The notes beneath the pieces were generated by a model. The model worked only from the letters and a program-made list of their open reading frames with translations, did not search any database and was not told the origin of the DNA. Of a DNA stretch of 64,000 bases, positions 9,492-20,774 are shown piece by piece. Each line of letters starts with the position of its first letter. Within the stretch, counting starts at the first letter, position 1. The position numbers were made by a program, and so were the translations under genes. The stretch covers positions 1 through 64,000 of the forward strand of contig NZ_FOQM01000012.1 of assembly GCF_900113735.1 (NCBI RefSeq), written 5' to 3'. This stretch comes from Bradyrhizobium sp. Gha. GTDB taxonomy: Bacteria; Pseudomonadota; Alphaproteobacteria; Rhizobiales; Xanthobacteraceae.

Positions 9492-10919
9492 ATGACAGGA
9501 TCTCTATCCAATATTGTGCACGTCATCGGCGCCGGCCTTGCCGGTTCCGAGGCGGCCTGGCAGGTGGCCAAATCGGGCGTGCCCGTCGTGCTGCACGAGA
9601 TGCGGCCAGACCGCATGACCGAGGCGCACCGAACCGACGGGTTCGCCGAGCTCGTCTGCTCCAATTCGTTCCGCTCCGACGATGCCGCCAACAACGCTGT
9701 CGGCCTGCTGCACGCCGAAATGCGCCGCCTCGACTCGCTGATCATGCGCGCGGCCGATGCCAACCAGGTGCCCGCCGGGGGAGCACTCGCGGTCGACCGC
9801 GACGGCTTCTCCGCAGCGGTCACCAAGGCGCTGAACGACCACCCTCTCATCGAGATCGCCCGCGGCGAGGTCAAAGGCCTGCCGCCGGCCGATTGGAGCA
9901 ACGTCGTTATTGCGACCGGCCCCCTCACCTCCGCCCCGCTGGCCGAGGCCATCCGCGAGTTGACCGACGAGAACGCGCTCGCCTTCTTCGATGCGATCGC
10001 GCCGATCGTGCACCGCGACTCCGTCGACATGTCGGTGGCATGGTTCCAGTCGCGCTACGATAAGGTCGGCCCCGGCGGTACCGGTGCCGATTACATCAAC
10101 TGCCCCATGACCAAGGAGCAGTATGACGGCTTCGTCGCCGCACTCATCGGCGGCGAGAAGACCGAGTTCAAGGAATGGGAGACCAACACGCCCTATTTCG
10201 ACGGCTGCCTGCCGATCGAGGTGATGGCGGAACGTGGGCCCGAGACGCTGCGCCACGGGCCGATGAAGCCGGTCGGCCTCACCAATCCGCACGATCCCAC
10301 AACAAAGTCCTATGCGATCGTGCAGCTGCGCCAGGACAACAAGCTCGGCACGCTCTACAACATCGTCGGCTTCCAGACGAAGCTGAAATACGGCGAGCAA
10401 CAGCGCATCTTCCGCACCATTCCCGGGCTGGAGAAGGCCGAATTCGCCCGTCTCGGCGGGCTGCACCGCAACACCTTCCTCAACTCGCCAAAGCTGCTCG
10501 ATGGCCAGTTGCGCTTGCGCGCACAGCCGCGACTGCGCTTTGCCGGCCAGATGACGGGCTGCGAAGGCTATGTGGAGTCCGCCAGCGTCGGCCTGATCGC
10601 GGGCCTCTACGCGGCTGCCGACGCGCGCGGCGAGACGCTTGCGAGCCCACCAGGCACGACCGCGCTTGGATCGCTGCTCGGCCACATCACCGGCGGCCAC
10701 ATCGAGGCCATCGAACCGGGCACGCGCTCGTTCCAGCCGATGAACATCAATTTCGGCTTGTTCCCGCCGCTCGCGAGCGCTCCCACGAAGAAGCCCGACG
10801 GCACGCGCTTACGCGGCAACGAGAAGACGGTGGCCAAGAAGCAAGCCATGAGCGCTTTGGCGCTCGCCGATCTCGATCGCTGGATCGCCGATCATTTGCG
10901 TATCGCCGCAGCCGCGTGA
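9492..10919 (+). CDS. trmFO: tRNA (uracil-5-)-methyltransferase, folate/FAD-dependent
   Basis: 475 residues, close to the usual TrmFO length. The N-terminal Rossmann motif [14 protein letters not shown] binds [32 protein letters not shown] and the later [17 protein letters not shown] with the second catalytic Cys are TrmFO signatures. It makes ribothymidine at position 54 of tRNA, taking the methylene carbon from 5,10-methylene-THF. This is the folate-dependent alternative to TrmA and is typical of alphaproteobacteria and Gram-positives. The next gene starts seven bases after its stop, so the two are probably co-transcribed. Confidence 0.97.
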
Positions 10920-13949: not shown

Positions 13950-15194
13950 TCAGGTGCAGCGCGCGCTCAGTCCGGAGGCGCTCAGCTTGGCCATGACCTC
14001 ATCGAGATGCGCACTGTCGCGGGTCTCGATGACGAGCTGCAGCAGCGTCGCCTTGGCCGGCAGGTCGGAGAAGGTCCGCTGGTGCGAGACCTCGATGATG
14101 TTGGCGCCGGCCTCGGCCAGCAGCGAAGCCACTGCCGCGAGCTGGCCGGGCCTGTCGGGAATATCGAGCGAGAGCTGCGTCAGCCGTCCCTCGCGCGCGA
14201 GCTCCCGCGTCAGCACCGAGGCGATCAGCCGGGTGTCGATATTGCCGCCGCTCAGCACAAGCCCGACCTTCTCGCCGGCAAAGCGCAAGGGATCGGACAT
14301 GATCGCCGCAAGTCCCGCAGCACCGGCCCCCTCGACGACCGTCTTCTCGATCGAGATCAGGGTCGCAACCGCGCGTTCGAGCTCGGCTTCGTTCACGAGC
14401 GCGATGTCGTCGACGAGACTGCGGACGATTTCACTGGTGATCTTGCCCGGCGATTTGACAGCGATGCCTTCGGCAAGCGTATCGCCGCGCGCCGGCAGAT
14501 TGCCGCCGTGGATGGCGTTGTACATGGAGGGATAGAGCCAGGCCTCGACGCCGAGAATGCGCACCGACCGCTTGATCGATTTCGCGGCGATGGCGATGCC
14601 GCTGATCAGGCCGCCTCCGCCGATCGGAACGACCAGCGTATCGAGCTCCGGCACGGCCTTGAGCATCTCCAGCCCGACCGTACCCTGGCCCGCGATGACA
14701 AGCGGATCGTCGTAGGGATGGACGAAGATCATGCCACGTGCTTCGCCGTGGCTCCGCGCAAACGCAGCCGCCTCTTCCAGGGTCGCCCCCGTGACGACCA
14801 CTTCAGCGCCGTGGTGCCTGGTGTTCTCGACCTTCACCATCGGCGTGCCCACCGGCATCACGATCGTGGCGGGAATGCCGAGCCGCTTGGCGTGATAGGC
14901 GACGCCCTGCGCGTGGTTGCCTGCCGACATTGCGACGACGCCATGCGCACGCTCTTCCGCGGTCAGCGCAGCGAGGCGATTGAGAGCGCCGCGCTCCTTG
15001 AACGAGGAGGTGAATTGAAGGTTTTCGAATTTGAGCCAGAGCTCGCAGCCGCAGATGCTGCTCAACGTGCGACTGTAGCTACAGGGCGTATCGACGACGG
15101 CGCCGTGAATGGTCGCGGCGGCGGCGTGAACGTCAGCCGGTGTAACCGGAAAGCCGCCCAGATCGGGGATTGCGGTTGGGGACATGTCGGCCAT
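13950..15194 (-). CDS. ilvA: Threonine ammonia-lyase (with ACT domain)
   Basis: About 414 residues. The PLP Lys is K66 in FTSSFKERGA, the phosphate loop is PIGGGGLISG, and a C-terminal ACT domain (about 335-414, LSLDIPDRPGQLAAVASLL) provides allosteric control. This 400-residue form with one ACT domain is the 'catabolic-like' TdcB/IlvA type and deaminates threonine to 2-oxobutyrate. The start is uncertain: ATGs at 15194 and 15185 and a longer upstream frame exist, none with a good ribosome site. It begins 45 bases after the squalene-synthase-like gene on the same strand and could be the tail of the sec operon. Confidence 0.92.
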   Translation of the reverse strand: MADMSPTAIPDLGGFPVTPADVHAAAATIHGAVVDTPCSYSRTLSSICGCELWLKFENLQFTSSFKERGALNRLAALTAEERAHGVVAMSAGNHAQGVAYHAKRLGIPATIVMPVGTPMVKVENTRHHGAEVVVTGATLEEAAAFARSHGEARGMIFVHPYDDPLVIAGQGTVGLEMLKAVPELDTLVVPIGGGGLISGIAIAAKSIKRSVRILGVEAWLYPSMYNAIHGGNLPARGDTLAEGIAVKSPGKITSEIVRSLVDDIALVNEAELERAVATLISIEKTVVEGAGAAGLAAIMSDPLRFAGEKVGLVLSGGNIDTRLIASVLTRELAREGRLTQLSLDIPDRPGQLAAVASLLAEAGANIIEVSHQRTFSDLPAKATLLQLVIETRDSAHLDEVMAKLSASGLSARCT

Positions 15195-15239
15195 GGGACA
15201 GCATAGAGCATTTGGCCGGTCCGGGCGATAAGCCAAATG

Positions 15240-16103
15240 CTATTTGGTAAATTCCCGCGATCGTGACGCCCGCCACAGCGTCCATAGCGCGCGTAGCCGC
15301 GATAACGGCTGCGGCGCGAACGGATTGCGCCCGGGCCGCGACAGGCGATCGAGATCAGCCCGCGCCTGACTCAACGGGAGGAACGCCGGCCGCACCGAGG
15401 GCGGCAGTTGCACCAGCAGCGACGAGGCCATCGCCAGATGCTGCCGGGCTTCGCCGATGAGCTGGTCCAGCACGGCATGGAGGTTGGGCGTCTGCTTGCC
15501 GGCGAACACATCTTCCGTGGCGCAGCCATGGCTGGTCAGGAATTGCTGCGGCAGAAACAATTGGCGATGGGACGAGTCCCGTGGCAGGTTTGCGATCACC
15601 TGCGCGATGCCCTGCGCCAGCCCCGCGTGGCGCGCGAGGTGCCCAGCCGCCTCCGAAACTTCGCCCATGATCCGCGCCGCCAGCACAAACAACGCCGAAG
15701 AGGTCGCGGCCAGATAGCCCTCGAGCGCCGTCATGGTCGGCATCGGGTCGTTGTAGAGATCGAACTGATGCTCGTCGACGAGCAGCGACAACGGCTCGAC
15801 CGGCAGGTCAAAATCGGCGATCGCGCGCAACAGCTCCGCTGCCACCGGATTGCCCTCGGCGCTGCCGTGGACAAGGCCCGAGAGCAGATCGGTCCACCAT
15901 TGAAAGCGGATCTCGCCGGGCAAGGGCTGGCTCACCTGGTCGCGGACGCGGACGATCTCGACATTGAAGGCGTAGAGCGCCAGCAGCGCGCGGCGCTCGG
16001 CAGCCGGTGCAAACAGCGTCGCGGCATAGCGTGGAAAGTCGTGGCTGCGCACCAGATCGGCGCAGAAGGTCACGCTGTCGGCCGGCGTCGCAGCGCTGCT
16101 CAT
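15240..16103 (-). CDS. Squalene/phytoene synthase-like protein, NDUFAF6-type (active site degenerate)
   Basis: 287 residues with the all-helical trans-isoprenyl synthase fold. The two Asp-rich metal motifs needed for catalysis are not kept: the first region reads IVRVRDQVSQP (about 50-60) and the second ANLPRDSSHRQLFLP (about 171-185) without the DxxxD pattern. Such degenerate members include NDUFAF6, a mitochondrial complex I assembly factor. The ATG overlaps the stop of the Mth938-domain gene by four bases, and that gene is a homologue of NDUFAF3. I therefore infer a role in NADH dehydrogenase assembly rather than carotenoid or hopanoid synthesis. Confidence 0.75.
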   Translation of the reverse strand: MSSAATPADSVTFCADLVRSHDFPRYAATLFAPAAERRALLALYAFNVEIVRVRDQVSQPLPGEIRFQWWTDLLSGLVHGSAEGNPVAAELLRAIADFDLPVEPLSLLVDEHQFDLYNDPMPTMTALEGYLAATSSALFVLAARIMGEVSEAAGHLARHAGLAQGIAQVIANLPRDSSHRQLFLPQQFLTSHGCATEDVFAGKQTPNLHAVLDQLIGEARQHLAMASSLLVQLPPSVRPAFLPLSQARADLDRLSRPGRNPFAPQPLSRLRALWTLWRASRSREFTK

Positions 16104-16483
16104 GGCACGGCAATCAGCGCAGCCGCGACGCGGCGCCGTTCGCCGATCATGATGTTGTAGGTGCGAACGGCGGGGCCGGTCTGCATCGTATCCAGCACCA
16201 CCCTCACCGCCTTCAGCGCCTGGCGCAGCTGCGGCGGCGGCAGCCAGACGCCGGTTCCGGTCCCGACCAGCAGCGTATCGATGCTGTTGGCGGCGGCGAA
16301 AACCCGATCCAGCGAATAGCGGTCGATCTTGGTGGGATCGGTCACGTCCCAGGCCCAGATCGCGTCGGGCAGGCAGAGCAGCGATCCGCGATGCGACATG
16401 CCGGCGAAGGCAAAGCCGCCCTTGCCATAGGCCTCGATCGGCGCGGAGCGCGGGAAATGGGGAGCGTTGGGATCGCCGGCCAT
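16100..16483 (-). CDS. Mth938-like domain protein (NDUFAF3 homologue)
   Basis: 127 residues of the DUF498/Mth938 family: PIEAYGKGGFAFAGMSHRGS, then the IDTLLVGTGTG segment, and the C-terminal VRTYNIMIGERRRVAAALIAV. The mitochondrial member NDUFAF3 is a complex I assembly factor. It lies between secF (60 bases upstream) and the NDUFAF6-like gene, overlapping the latter by four bases (ATGA), so the pair is translationally coupled. No catalytic residues are known for the family. Confidence 0.88.
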   Translation of the reverse strand: MAGDPNAPHFPRSAPIEAYGKGGFAFAGMSHRGSLLCLPDAIWAWDVTDPTKIDRYSLDRVFAAANSIDTLLVGTGTGVWLPPPQLRQALKAVRVVLDTMQTGPAVRTYNIMIGERRRVAAALIAVP

Positions 16484-16543: not shown

Positions 16544-17569
16544 TCATGCCTTGATTTTCTTCGCCGGCGCAGCCGTTTCCTTCGCATCCTCGCGATGCTC
16601 GCCAACGCCGAGATAGATCAGAATCGGCGCCGCGATGAAGATCGAGGTGTAGGTACCGACCAGCACCACGCCGAACATCATGACGGCCGTGAAGCTGTGG
16701 ATGGCATGACCGCCGAACAGCAGCAGCGCCAGCAGCGCCAGCGTCACGGTGAAGTGGGTGATGATCGAGCGCGACAGCGTCGAGTTGATGGATTCGTTCA
16801 GCAGCTGCGGCATCGGCATCTTCTTGTAGCGCCGCAGCATTTCACGGATGCGGTCATAGATGACGACGGTGTCGTTGAGCGAGTAGCCCAGAATGGTCAG
16901 GAGCGCCGCGATGCTGGTCAGGTCGAAATCGACCTGGCTGATCGACATGAAGCCGATGGTCAGCACGATGTCGTGCACGTTGGCGATCATGGCGCCGAGC
17001 GCGAACTGCCATTCGAAGCGGAACCAGAGATAGACCAGGATCGCGCCGATTGCGAGCATCAGGCCGGCCATGCCCCACCCCAGCAGCTCGCCGGAGACGC
17101 GCGGGCCCACCACCTCGACGCGGCGGTATTCGACGGACTCGCCGAGGGCGCCGCGAACCTTGTCCACCGCTTCCTGCTGGGCCTTGTCGCCGCCCGGCTG
17201 CTCGGCCACCCGAAGCAGCACGTCGGCGGCGCTGCCGAACTGCTGCAGCTGGACTTCGCCGAGGCCGAGGCTGCCAAGGGTCGCGCGCATCTGCGCGAGA
17301 TCGGCGGAGCCCGACTTGGCCCGCACCTCCATCAAGGTGCCCCCCTTGAAGTCGATGCCGAAGTTCAGGCCGTGCGTGAAGAACAGCGTGATGGCGACGA
17401 TCGACAGCGCGGCCGAGATCGGGAAGCTGATGCGGCGAAAGCGCGTGAAGTCGAAATGCGTGTTGTCCGGGACGATGCGCAGCGACGGCAGGAGGCCGAG
17501 CACGCTGACCACGGTCAGCACGGCAATCAGGACGCCGAGAGAAATGAGAACGATTTGAGTAGTGGTCAC
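16544..17569 (-). CDS. secF: Protein translocase subunit SecF
   Basis: 341 residues with six predicted membrane helices. It shows the GINFGIDFKGGTLMEV-type strand after helix 1 and the DTVVIYDRIREMLR loop typical of SecF. With SecD and YajC it forms the proton-driven accessory complex that helps SecYEG release exported proteins. It begins 16 bases after secD, as in most bacteria. Confidence 0.97.
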   Translation of the reverse strand: MTTTQIVLISLGVLIAVLTVVSVLGLLPSLRIVPDNTHFDFTRFRRISFPISAALSIVAITLFFTHGLNFGIDFKGGTLMEVRAKSGSADLAQMRATLGSLGLGEVQLQQFGSAADVLLRVAEQPGGDKAQQEAVDKVRGALGESVEYRRVEVVGPRVSGELLGWGMAGLMLAIGAILVYLWFRFEWQFALGAMIANVHDIVLTIGFMSISQVDFDLTSIAALLTILGYSLNDTVVIYDRIREMLRRYKKMPMPQLLNESINSTLSRSIITHFTVTLALLALLLFGGHAIHSFTAVMMFGVVLVGTYTSIFIAAPILIYLGVGEHREDAKETAAPAKKIKA

Positions 17570-17585: not shown

Positions 17586-19184
17586 TCAGATCGGCACAGT
17601 CTTCGGCCGCTTCCACTGCACCCACCAGGCCACGATCAGACGGGTCATGGTGAATGCGGTGAACACAGTGGTGATGATGCCGATGCCGAGCGTCACTGCG
17701 AAGCCGCGCACCGGACCGGTGCCGATCATGAACAGCACTGCAGCGGCGATGAAGGTGGTGATGTTGGAATCGAGAATGGTGGCAAGCGCCCGCTTGAAGC
17801 CTGCGTCGATCGCCGAGATCGGGCTTCGCCCCCCGCGCAGCTCCTCGCGGATGCGCTCATAGATGAGCACGTTGGAGTCGACCGCGATGCCGACGGTGAG
17901 CACGATGCCGGCGATGCCGGGGAGCGTCAGCGTGGCGCTGAGCAGCGACAGCAAGCCGAAGATCATGGCAACGTTGATCGTCACCGCGATGTTGGCGAAC
18001 ACGCCGAACAGCCGGTACGTCAACAGCATGAAGACGACGACCATGATCGAGCCGACATAGGCCGCGAGCTCACCCTTGTCGATCGAGTCCTGGCCGAGGC
18101 CGGGACCGACCGTGCGTTCCTCCACCACCGTAAGCGGCGCAGGCAGCGCGCCGGCGCGCAGCAGGATCGCGAGGTCGTTGGCCGACTGCACGGTGAAATT
18201 GCCGGAGATCTGGCCCTGCCCGCCGGTGATCGGCTCGCGGATGACCGGCGCCGAGATCACCTTGTTGTCGAGGATGATCGCGAAGGGCACCCCGACATTC
18301 TCCTGCGTGGCCTGCGCGAACTTGCGCGCGCCCGAGGTATTGAACTTGAAGCTGACGACCGGCTCATTGGTCCGCTGGTCGAAGGTCGCCTGGGCGTCGG
18401 TCAGATCGCCGCCCGCAACCAGCACCTGCTTCTTGACAACGTAGCCGGACGGCGGCGGCGTGGCGGCCGGCAGGAACTCGGTGTCCGGCGGCAAACCGCC
18501 CTGCTGCGCCTGGTCCGGCGGCACCGAGGGATCGACCATGCGGAATTCCATCTTCGCGGTCTTGCCCAGCAGTTCCTTCAAATGGGTCGGATCCTGCAAA
18601 CCCGGCACCTGCACCAGGATGCGGTCGTTACCCTGACGCTGGATGATGGGCTCGACGGTGCCGAGCTCGTTGACGCGCTTCTCGACGATCTGGATCGACT
18701 GCTCGATGGTCTTGCGCAAACGCTCGATCATCGCGGTCTCCGGAATGCTGAGGCGGATCAATCCGCCGCCGGCATCCGAGACGTCGATGTCGCGCTGACC
18801 GCTGGATCCCATCAGGCCGCCAATCGGCTGTGCAAGCTCACGCAACTTGGCGAGCACCGTCTGGGCGTCCGCGTCCTTGACGCGCACCTCGACGGCATCG
18901 CTCTTCGTGACGAGACCGGTGTAAACGATCTTGGCTTCGCGCAGCACGCGGCGGACGTCGTCGCGGATCTGGTCGAGCTTTTCCTTTTTCACATAGTTGG
19001 AGTCGACCTCGAGCTGCAGAGAGGAGCCGCCCTGCAAGTCGAGACCCAACACCAGGCGCCGCTGCGCCCACGTGGGCCAGGTCTTGACCTGCGCCTCGGG
19101 GAAGAAGTTCGGGACCGCGCAGAGGCACACGATCAGCGCCGTCAGGATAATCCCGAGCGCCTTCCACCGCGTGAAATACAACAT
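17586..19184 (-). CDS. secD: Protein translocase subunit SecD
   Basis: 532 residues: one N-terminal helix, the LVLGLDLQGGSSLQLEVD motif, a large periplasmic domain (about 60-340), then five helices with AVDSNVLIYERIREELR, the RND-type segment. It partners SecF, encoded directly downstream, and YajC, encoded 49 bases upstream. Length and order match the family. Confidence 0.97.
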   Translation of the reverse strand: MLYFTRWKALGIILTALIVCLCAVPNFFPEAQVKTWPTWAQRRLVLGLDLQGGSSLQLEVDSNYVKKEKLDQIRDDVRRVLREAKIVYTGLVTKSDAVEVRVKDADAQTVLAKLRELAQPIGGLMGSSGQRDIDVSDAGGGLIRLSIPETAMIERLRKTIEQSIQIVEKRVNELGTVEPIIQRQGNDRILVQVPGLQDPTHLKELLGKTAKMEFRMVDPSVPPDQAQQGGLPPDTEFLPAATPPPSGYVVKKQVLVAGGDLTDAQATFDQRTNEPVVSFKFNTSGARKFAQATQENVGVPFAIILDNKVISAPVIREPITGGQGQISGNFTVQSANDLAILLRAGALPAPLTVVEERTVGPGLGQDSIDKGELAAYVGSIMVVVFMLLTYRLFGVFANIAVTINVAMIFGLLSLLSATLTLPGIAGIVLTVGIAVDSNVLIYERIREELRGGRSPISAIDAGFKRALATILDSNITTFIAAAVLFMIGTGPVRGFAVTLGIGIITTVFTAFTMTRLIVAWWVQWKRPKTVPI

Positions 19185-19233: not shown

Positions 19234-19602
19234 TCACTTCGCCGCGGCGTCGTCCTTGGCGCTTTCCTTCGCGCTGTCCTTGGCCGGCTCGCCCTTGGCG
19301 CGCACGCCCGAGATCATCGAGCGCATCTGGCGCACGCGGACGCCGTCGGAGATTTCGAACTCGATCTGGTCGTCATCGACCACCTTGGTGACCTTGCCGA
19401 CGAGGCCCCCCGACGTCACGACGGTGTCGCCGCGGCGGATGTTCTTCACGAGTTCGGCGTGGTCCTTCACCTTCTTCTGCTGCGGACGCAGAATCAGGAA
19501 GTACATGATCACGAAGATCAGGGCGAACGGCAGCAGCGACATCAACATGCTGTTGGTGTCGCCGGCGCCCGCAGCCTGGGCATACGCAGGGGTAATCAGC
19601 AT
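19234..19602 (-). CDS. yajC: Preprotein translocase subunit YajC
   Basis: 122 residues. A single membrane helix (LLPFALIFVIMYFLILRPQ) is followed by QQKKVKDHAELVKNIRRGDTVVT, the YajC signature, and a charged Lys/Ala/Asp tail of about 20 residues. It is the first gene of the yajC-secD-secF-Mth938-NDUFAF6-like run. The 180 bases upstream separate it from the divergent DUF815 ATPase gene and should contain both promoters. Confidence 0.95.
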   Translation of the reverse strand: MLITPAYAQAAGAGDTNSMLMSLLPFALIFVIMYFLILRPQQKKVKDHAELVKNIRRGDTVVTSGGLVGKVTKVVDDDQIEFEISDGVRVRQMRSMISGVRAKGEPAKDSAKESAKDDAAAK

Positions 19603-19781
19603 TCGGACGATCCTCGTGGAAACGGGGGAAGCCGGTCAGGCCTTGACGGCGACCGGCTCGGTCAAATTCGCGCGGACTATAGCGACCACCGCCCCAATTG
19701 CAACGCTGCCAGACCGCCCTTTTGACCACCTTGCGGCGCGCCGTCAGGCCCGATAAGGCTGCATTCTCAGGAACTTCGGAC

Positions 19782-20774
19782 ATGCCCAAAAAACCAAGCA
19801 AAAGCCCGGCCGGCAAAGGCCCCCGTACCCCTGCCATGAAGGCCGCCCAGGTCGCGGCAAAACGCCCCAAGGTGGTCCAAAAAACCTCCCTCCAGGCAAC
19901 CCCGGACCTCACCCAGGAGCGCATCGTCCGCGCGCTGGAAACGATTGCGACCCACCTCGCCGCCCAGGGTATGCCGGCCGCCGAACGCGAGTCGTTCAAG
20001 CAGGCGGACGCCTATGTCTGGCATCCGGACGGCCGCCTCGCCGCGGTGCCCCGGGTCAGCCGCGTCGAGCTGTTTCTGCTCAAGGGTGTCGACCGGATGC
20101 GCGATATCCTGATGGAGAACACCGAGCGTTTTGCAGGCGGCCTGCCCGCCAACAACGCCCTGCTCTGGGGCGCGCGCGGCATGGGCAAGTCCTCGCTGGT
20201 GAAGGCGGCGCATGCCAGCATCAACGCCGACCGCAAGCCGGCCGACAGACTGAAGCTCATCGAGATCCATCGCGAGGACATCGAAACGCTGCCGATGCTG
20301 ATGGAGCAGCTCCGCGACGCCGACTTCCGCTTCATCGTGTTCATCGACGACCTCTCCTTCGACGGCAATGACGCGTCCTACAAATCGCTCAAGGCTGTAC
20401 TCGAAGGTGGGATCGAGGGGCGGCCCGAGAACGTCATCCTCTACGCCACCTCCAACCGCCGCCATCTGCTGGCGCGCGACATGATCGAGAACGAACGCTC
20501 GACCGCGATCAATCCGGGCGAGGCGGTCGAGGAAAAGGTCTCGCTGTCGGATCGGTTCGGTCTCTGGCTCGGCTTCCACCGCTGCAGCCAGGACGAATAT
20601 CTCGCCATGGTGGGGGGCTATTGCAGCCATTTCGGCATCAAGGTCGACGACGAAGCGCTCGAGCGCGAAGCGCTGGAATGGTCGACCACGCGCGGCGCGC
20701 GCTCGGGCCGGGTCGCCTGGCAGTTCGTGCAGGAGCTGGCCGGACGGCTCGGCGTGAAGCTCGCGGCGAAGTAG
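19782..20774 (+). CDS. DUF815 family AAA ATPase
   Basis: 330 residues. A basic, Lys/Pro/Ala-rich N-terminal tail (1-40) precedes the DUF815 AAA module with Walker A LLWGARGMGKSSL (about 128-140), Walker B RFIVFIDDLSF, and sensor segment VILYATSNRRHL. The start at 19782 (MPKKPSKSPAGK) has AGGA nine bases before it; an upstream ATG lies inside the yajC promoter region. The family is widespread, of unknown function. It is divergently arranged from yajC, a frequent pairing in this group. Confidence 0.88.
   Translation: MPKKPSKSPAGKGPRTPAMKAAQVAAKRPKVVQKTSLQATPDLTQERIVRALETIATHLAAQGMPAAERESFKQADAYVWHPDGRLAAVPRVSRVELFLLKGVDRMRDILMENTERFAGGLPANNALLWGARGMGKSSLVKAAHASINADRKPADRLKLIEIHREDIETLPMLMEQLRDADFRFIVFIDDLSFDGNDASYKSLKAVLEGGIEGRPENVILYATSNRRHLLARDMIENERSTAINPGEAVEEKVSLSDRFGLWLGFHRCSQDEYLAMVGGYCSHFGIKVDDEALEREALEWSTTRGARSGRVAWQFVQELAGRLGVKLAAK

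Follow-up and report, generated by a model that had tools for sequence, protein, structure and literature searches.

Two genes that follow yajC, secD and secF in Bradyrhizobium sp. Gha encode a DUF498 protein and an NDUFAF6-like protein, members of the families to which the mitochondrial complex I assembly factors NDUFAF3 and NDUFAF6 belong. They are probably the bacterial equivalents of these two factors and would act as non-catalytic chaperones of Nuo assembly, unneeded by a complex I in which NuoC and NuoD are fused (NuoCD). From the families, the loss of the active site, the fold, the separate clade, the gene order and the distribution described below, we infer the chaperone role, its partners and the order of events. 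The names NDUFAF3 and NDUFAF6, as applied to the bacterial genes, are based on family membership, the literature and background knowledge.

Defects in NDUFAF3 and NDUFAF6 lead to severe mitochondrial disease. The role of NDUFAF6 is entered as not known in a table of PMC8348117, and a cryo-EM review (PMC10910544), in the passages drawn on here, has NDUFAF3 down as a factor without structural data. Bacteria would be convenient models for both factors if their relatives of the two proteins have the same task.

The locus and its gene order

The window, that is, the whole stretch of 64,000 nucleotides that was analysed, contains the following features:

9492..10919, plus strand: trmFO (TIGR00137, 550.3 bits)
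13950..15236, minus strand: threonine ammonia-lyase gene (TIGR01127, 435 bits)
15240..16103, minus strand: NDUFAF6-like protein, 287 aa, with an SQS_PSY fold but no catalytic Asp motifs (PF00494, 194.9 bits)
15576..15602, minus strand: second Asp motif site, QVIANLPRD (residues 168-176) in place of NILRDxxED
15891..15908, minus strand: family signature RLQWWR, in the window RFQWWT (residues 66-71)
15939..15953, minus strand: first Asp motif site, VRVRD (residues 51-55) in place of DDIAD
16100..16103, minus strand: ATGA overlap of the NDUFAF6-like start with the DUF498 stop, read from the sequence
16100..16483, minus strand: DUF498/Mth938-fold protein, 127 aa, NDUFAF3 family (PF04430, 103.7 bits)
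16544..17569, minus strand: secF, with the first GTG in frame as putative start (TIGR00966, 303.3 bits)
17586..19184, minus strand: secD, with SecDF P1 domains (TIGR01129, 494.6 bits)
19234..19602, minus strand: yajC, first gene of the cluster (PF02699, 94.0 bits; TIGR00739, 89.4 bits)
19698..20774, plus strand: DUF815 ATPase gene, before yajC on the opposite strand (PF05673, 347 bits)

The YajC, SecD and SecF domains all exceed their Pfam cut-offs, and Pfam and NCBIfam agree on the three genes. The DUF498 protein is matched in Pfam only and receives no NCBIfam name; its PF04430 match spans model positions 1-109 of 109 (cut-off 33), and its solved relatives include 2fvt (E 7.6e-62) and 2fi9 (E 1.8e-31). 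For the PF00494 match of the NDUFAF6-like protein, the cut-off is 26. Open reading frames, Pfam matches and motifs bear out the description in an earlier note on this DNA, according to which an Mth938-fold gene and a squalene-synthase-fold gene with degenerate Asp motifs follow secF and overlap by ATGA. A scan for promoters and terminators gives one promoter-like site upstream of yajC, with 0.7 expected, and carries no information. The threonine ammonia-lyase gene lies on the same strand directly past the NDUFAF6-like gene and could be co-transcribed with it. DUF498 is matched once in the genome (8.25 Mb in 95 contigs), which carries nuoD on a different contig from the yajC-secD-secF cluster, so that no nuo linkage is seen at this locus.

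The strand and order of yajC, secD, secF, DUF498 and the NDUFAF6-like gene in the window are those of other alphaproteobacteria. Two sets of loci were surveyed. Set 1 consists of 80 stretches around DUF498 from 78 alphaproteobacteria, drawn from the 108 DUF498-positive genomes of the class sample; two genomes gave a second copy, and removal of one of these second copies (L101), which the clean profile does not match as DUF498, left 79 loci. Set 2 consists of 80 named loci, and the same species may occur in both sets. This survey, proposed in the earlier note, places secF directly upstream of DUF498 in 72/79 loci of set 1 and 72/77 of the named set, counting loci with room to tell, and the adjacency is beyond chance. 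The NDUFAF6-like gene follows DUF498 on the same strand in 47/70 and 38/48 loci, respectively, that have at least 5 kb of room.

The usual order is DUF815 (other strand), yajC, secD, secF, DUF498 and the NDUFAF6-like gene, mostly followed by trmFO, which comes after the NDUFAF6-like gene in 35/49 (set 1) and 33/51 (named) loci, always on the opposite strand. In some loci, sodB, or hpnC-hpnD-hpnE on the other strand, is found between DUF498 and the NDUFAF6-like gene. Among the loci with both genes, sodB occupies this interval in 16/49 (set 1) and 21/51 (named) and hpn genes in 10/49 and 6/51, and the two domains lie at most 150 nt apart in 5/49 and 6/51. The ATGA overlap of the window is thus an unusual arrangement among its relatives. 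The names trmFO, superoxide dismutase, hpnC, hpnD and hpnE were checked on examples by profile; for superoxide dismutase and one hpnC example, the best match does not reach the cut-off. Opposite-strand hpn genes occur in the interval in L023, L040, L045, L048, L073 and others; in L023, hpnD and hpnE exceed the cut-off and hpnC falls just under it. The NDUFAF6-like pseudo-enzyme may have originated beside its catalytic relatives.

Outside this arrangement, the genes occur in other company. In six loci of a single alphaproteobacterial family, f23 (L205, L206, L226-L229), yajC, sodB and the NDUFAF6-like gene stand together, and secD, secF and DUF498 are absent there. Upstream sequence is available for 12 non-alphaproteobacterial loci; DUF498 is without adjoining secDF in nine of them (L211-L214, L217-L221) and lies beside secDF in three (L210, L215 and L216, from families f146, f165 and f143).

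These neighbourhoods bear on the possibility that the pair is a general helper of the Sec translocon or of membrane-protein insertion, with complex I as one client of many. The frequent position of DUF498 behind secF, in the three non-alphaproteobacterial loci as well as in the two alphaproteobacterial sets, is what such a role would lead one to expect. However, Sec is general, and DUF498 and strong NDUFAF6-like matches are absent from the 16 genomes of the class sample that lack NuoD; moreover, the NDUFAF6-like gene persists without adjoining secDF in the six f23 loci, as does DUF498 in the nine loci outside the class. A general Sec role is therefore judged quite unlikely. Position is likewise the one argument for the earlier suggestion that SecDF-YajC couples membrane insertion to Nuo assembly, and the linkage is broken in several lineages; in many genomes, moreover, DUF498 and the NDUFAF6-like gene are parted by genes of the opposite strand. 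The Sec linkage is real as a position; a functional coupling to Nuo assembly is possible.

The linkage as such has a history. Saada et al. (2009; Am J Hum Genet 84:718) reportedly used gene conservation to link NDUFAF3 with the SecF/SecD/YajC cluster and with C8ORF38, the cluster so reported having the same yajC-secD-secF linkage with homologues of NDUFAF3 and C8orf38. The central idea of the earlier note is thus already published.

A squalene-synthase fold without catalytic residues

The NDUFAF6-like protein has a squalene-synthase fold minus the catalytic residues and forms a clade of its own. The first profile built for it also caught the hopanoid synthases HpnC and HpnD, and was replaced by a profile from alignment A1. 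DxxxD at either motif site is found in none of 90 aligned NDUFAF6-like rows, whereas the HpnC/HpnD rows of the same comparison keep the first motif in 31/33 and the second in 32/33. The NDUFAF6-like rows are marked instead by R66 (90/90, against 9% of HpnC/HpnD), W69 (96% against 0%) and W70 (90/90 against 61%). In a tree of 45 + 33 sequences, the NDUFAF6-like proteins are parted from HpnC and HpnD by a single branch (support 100/99); the tree has some long branches and a bootstrap that had yet to settle.

The AlphaFold2 model of the NDUFAF6-like protein has a mean pLDDT of 92.6. Its closest solved structures are CrtM-like proteins and dehydrosqualene synthases, with Z 29-32 and rmsd 2.1-2.7 over 270-276 residues; the best match is the CrtM-like 8isa (Z 31.8, rmsd 2.1 over 270 residues). 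Among NCBIfam models, the window protein matches HpnD best (129.6 bits, cut-off 278.6), followed by HpnC (53.1, cut-off 250.45) and three CrtB models (27-51, cut-offs 480-550), and no synthase model that it matches reaches its cut-off.

The close structural match to a CrtM-like enzyme and the HpnD match could suggest a working prenyl or squalene synthase whose link to complex I is indirect, via lipids or quinone. Against this stand the absence of both Asp motifs from all 90 rows, scores that stay below the cut-offs of all synthase models with a match, and the existence of HpnC and HpnD as separate genes, which in some genomes adjoin the NDUFAF6-like gene. Such an enzyme is very improbable, and a catalytic role for the NDUFAF6-like protein was rejected on the missing Asp motifs. 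A conserved active site for isoprenoid synthesis in the second protein, which the earlier note had named as speaking against its idea, is thus absent. In two genomes (L233 of G654 and L245 of G717), frames of 580 and 583 aa match the HpnC/HpnD profile and carry two DDxxD motifs, which would fit a fusion of hpnC with hpnD.

Loss of the active site is what the bacterial protein shares with its mitochondrial relatives. NDUFAF6 (C8orf38) and fungal NDU1 are alike to it in the SQS_PSY fold and in the loss of both DxxxD motifs; the bacterial protein differs in having no mitochondrial targeting, and the likeness is one of description rather than of direct comparison. The parts of PMC8007014 drawn on here describe NDUFAF6/NDU1 and their orthologues as being without the DxxxD motifs, and use four bacterial orthologues as outgroup of NDU1. 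HpnC and HpnD of the hopanoid pathway share the fold and superfamily, and in some relatives they are encoded next to the NDUFAF6-like gene; unlike the NDUFAF6-like protein, they keep both metal-binding motifs, and they fall on the opposite side of the 100/99 branch.

NDUFAF3 belongs to the PF04430/Mth938 family. NDUFAF3 (C3orf60), a factor of the Q module, and bacterial DUF498, which keeps to genomes with NuoD apart from one exception, are alike in their family, a likeness by membership rather than by direct sequence comparison; the bacterial gene differs in that it adjoins secDF. The DUF498 profile also matches the structure of human C11orf67 (2ab1, E 9.8e-7), which we take to be AAMDC and which is the one human relative that it finds among solved structures. 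Profile searches at E 0.01 yielded no solved NDUFAF3 or NDUFAF6 chain, a negative result that does not speak against kinship.

Co-occurrence with complex I

The class sample comprises 192 alphaproteobacterial genomes that are at least 90% complete. A strong NDUFAF6-like match was defined as E 1e-34 or better with the A1 profile, a threshold too strict for diverged genes, the one in G132 being an example. NuoD is matched in 176/192 genomes, over the cut-off in 164. DUF498 is present in 108/192 and a strong NDUFAF6-like match in 104/192, every one of these genomes having a NuoD match. None of the 16 NuoD-less genomes has DUF498 or a strong NDUFAF6-like match, and weak NDUFAF6-like matches in the HpnC/HpnD range occur in two of them; all 16 are small (0.8-1.8 Mb), so that genome size confounds this test.

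Both genes are found in 91 genomes, DUF498 alone in 17, the NDUFAF6-like gene alone in 13 and neither in 71 (Fisher 1e-22 for joint presence, kinship ignored). This joint presence has to be weighed against inherited inertia, in which the genes between yajC and trmFO simply stay where they are and their position is silent on function. The presence of sodB, hpnC, hpnD and hpnE, for the most part with opposite orientation, within that interval and the likewise conserved flanks trmFO and DUF815 agree with such inertia, yet it leaves unexplained why 91 genomes have both genes and 30 a single one, and why the genes are linked with the kind of complex I (see below). As an account of the locus it is unlikely.

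Neither gene is detected, by the thresholds used, in 55/176 NuoD-positive alphaproteobacteria, and the pair is therefore dispensable. NuoD exceeds the cut-off in all 16 named alphaproteobacterial genomes and is found in 137/139 genomes of family f54, which we think is Caulobacteraceae. In the four sampled genomes of one genus of this family (g55: G052, G328, G443, G454), NuoD is present and DUF498 absent, while other f54 genera have DUF498; the absence is probably a recent loss.

In a sample of 299 genomes from the whole phylum, DUF498 is present in 168, and NuoD is matched in 261, over the cut-off in 251. A NuoD match accompanies DUF498 in 167/168 genomes (Fisher 5e-14, kinship ignored). The phylum sample has 38 NuoD-less genomes, and among the 20 listed, ten have 4 Mb or more, which makes size a lesser problem here. 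The co-occurrence with nuo genes that the earlier note proposed to look for thus holds in the class and in the phylum. The one genome with DUF498 and without NuoD, G243, also lacks a NuoC match; it has 1.5 Mb and is listed as 100% complete (locus L222). Three further genomes (G309, G338, G352) have DUF498 with weak or partial NuoD matches only.

Mth938, the namesake of the fold, is archaeal. Among 14 control genomes, PF04430 is matched in three, Caulobacter vibrioides, Thermus composti and the archaeon Methanosarcina acetivorans; all three match the NuoD model, as do eight controls without DUF498. The E. coli control has no PF04430 match.

This distribution supports the proposed ancestral complex I assembly module in part. 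In the samples searched, the two genes go together with complex I, and the active site is lost; on the other side stand the dispensability of the pair, G243 and the archaeal PF04430 protein. The pair as such was not seen in organisms without complex I, whereas DUF498 by itself occurs without NuoC and NuoD in G243.

Fused and separate NuoC and NuoD

NuoC corresponds to NDUFS3, NuoD to NDUFS2 and NuoH to ND1. In the sections drawn on here, NDUFS2, NDUFS3, NDUFS7 and ND6 are listed as core partners of NDUFAF3 (PMC4992684), NDUFAF6 is said to act on ND1 (PMC8007014; ND1 also appears in the table of PMC8348117), and splitting of the E. coli NuoCD is reported to abolish complex I activity (PMC7050243). 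Together with the missing PF04430 match in E. coli, the NDUFAF3 partners NDUFS2 and NDUFS3 and the split-NuoCD defect fit a factor that joins NuoC and NuoD.

Both bacterial proteins would act as non-catalytic chaperones in early Nuo assembly. The DUF498 protein may hold separate NuoC and NuoD together while the quinone-binding module forms, and the NDUFAF6-like protein, its metal-binding aspartates lost, may stabilise NuoH or present it to this module at the membrane. The gammaproteobacterial complex I, as in E. coli, with NuoC and NuoD on one polypeptide, would need neither factor. Adjacency to secDF may provide steady co-expression and would not be essential. The link with the kind of complex I leads to a specific prediction: the two factors might help an E. 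coli strain with split NuoCD, in which complex I is inactive.

Outside the alphaproteobacteria, NuoC was searched in 42 hand-picked genomes, one to three per family. Fused NuoCD is found in 0/19 genomes with DUF498 and NuoC, compared with 11/22 without DUF498, all 11 fusions having been read (Fisher 2e-4, kinship ignored). Within the class, 12 DUF498-positive genomes with long NuoD frames were considered as candidate fusions and rejected, as all 12 read as unfused. NuoC and NuoD are also unfused in the other 11/22 genomes without DUF498 outside the class, and unfused examples that speak against a need for the genes exist within it (G125, G153, G052, G328). Separate NuoC and NuoD thus do not require the DUF498 and NDUFAF6-like genes.

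Family f23 was picked since one member lacks NuoD. It is probably Acetobacteraceae, because it has many genera (77 among 90 genomes) and a mixture of complex I kinds; the passages of PMC10715153 drawn on here mention nuo13 and nuo14 operons for Acetobacteraceae. The NDUFAF6-like profile was run on all 90 genomes, and NuoC was searched in 34, namely all 20 judged negative for the NDUFAF6-like gene, 6 with weak matches and 8 of those with strong ones. NuoC is separate in 14/14 tested genomes with the NDUFAF6-like gene. Nine of these 14 NuoC/NuoD pairs were read, and all are separate; G132, G491, G666, G684 and G706, whose pairs are not among the nine, have NuoC frames of 208-294 aa, which leave no room for NuoD. 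Among the 20 genomes without the NDUFAF6-like gene, NuoC is not matched in seven, NuoCD is fused in ten and the two are separate in three (G680, G687, G691), which are exceptions to the pattern (Fisher 1e-6, or 3e-5 among NuoC-positive genomes, kinship ignored). Each of the ten fusions (L190-L199) has the NuoC and NuoD Pfam domains together in a single frame, 592-625 aa long. The f23 genomes without complex I have 1.9-2.6 Mb and are not extremely reduced.

In 19/20 negative genomes (all except G687), the best remaining A1 match has intact HpnC/HpnD motifs, and four genomes supply five such proteins that score above the cut-off for HpnD or HpnC. In the HpnD subtree, six NuoC-less f23 genomes form one clade and the fused ones another, which holds one further NuoC-less genome; the f23 pattern may thus go back to no more than two or three independent events. 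The four f23 members of the phylum sample (G021, G132, G465, G491), three of which have separate NuoC, gave no DUF498 match, and DUF498 is present at the f23 locus of G662.

Fused NuoCD and the gene surveyed, the NDUFAF6-like gene in f23 and DUF498 outside the class, coincide in no tested genome, the two halves of this argument thus concerning different genes. This exclusion is apparently new: no statement on the gene order in bacteria or on the fused-NuoCD pattern came up in searches of the open-access literature. To our knowledge, the contrast of fused and separate NuoC and NuoD is absent from Saada et al. (2009).

A NuoD profile built from the ten f23 fusions scores 701-748 bits on the eleven fused non-alphaproteobacterial NuoD of the gammaproteobacterial kind, compared with about 360-413 bits on most unfused, alphaproteobacterial NuoD. 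These f23 genomes therefore carry a different, gammaproteobacterial lineage of complex I, and their native complex I has probably been replaced through transfer. NuoCD fusion and complex I lineage are consequently confounded. The distribution suggests that DUF498 and the NDUFAF6-like protein serve one complex I lineage only.

In a stricter version of the chaperone role, the module would be specific for a complex I whose NuoC and NuoD are separate polypeptides. It would join the two subunits, and NuoH, and the fusion of nuoC and nuoD would itself make it dispensable; bacteria without complex I or with the fused kind would therefore have lost it, and mitochondria, with NDUFS3 and NDUFS2 separate, would have kept it. 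This version is doubtful, and a lineage-specific dependence in which NuoCD fusion plays no role fits equally well. The broader reading, in which both proteins would be non-catalytic Nuo-assembly chaperones that a fused-NuoCD complex I does not need, is the one we favour.

One MAG among the loci (L179) is titled Asaia bogorensis; its family search gave 16 genomes, unlike the large f23, and the title may be wrong. Around it, NuoD is matched in 16/16 genomes of the family and in 21/23 of the order.
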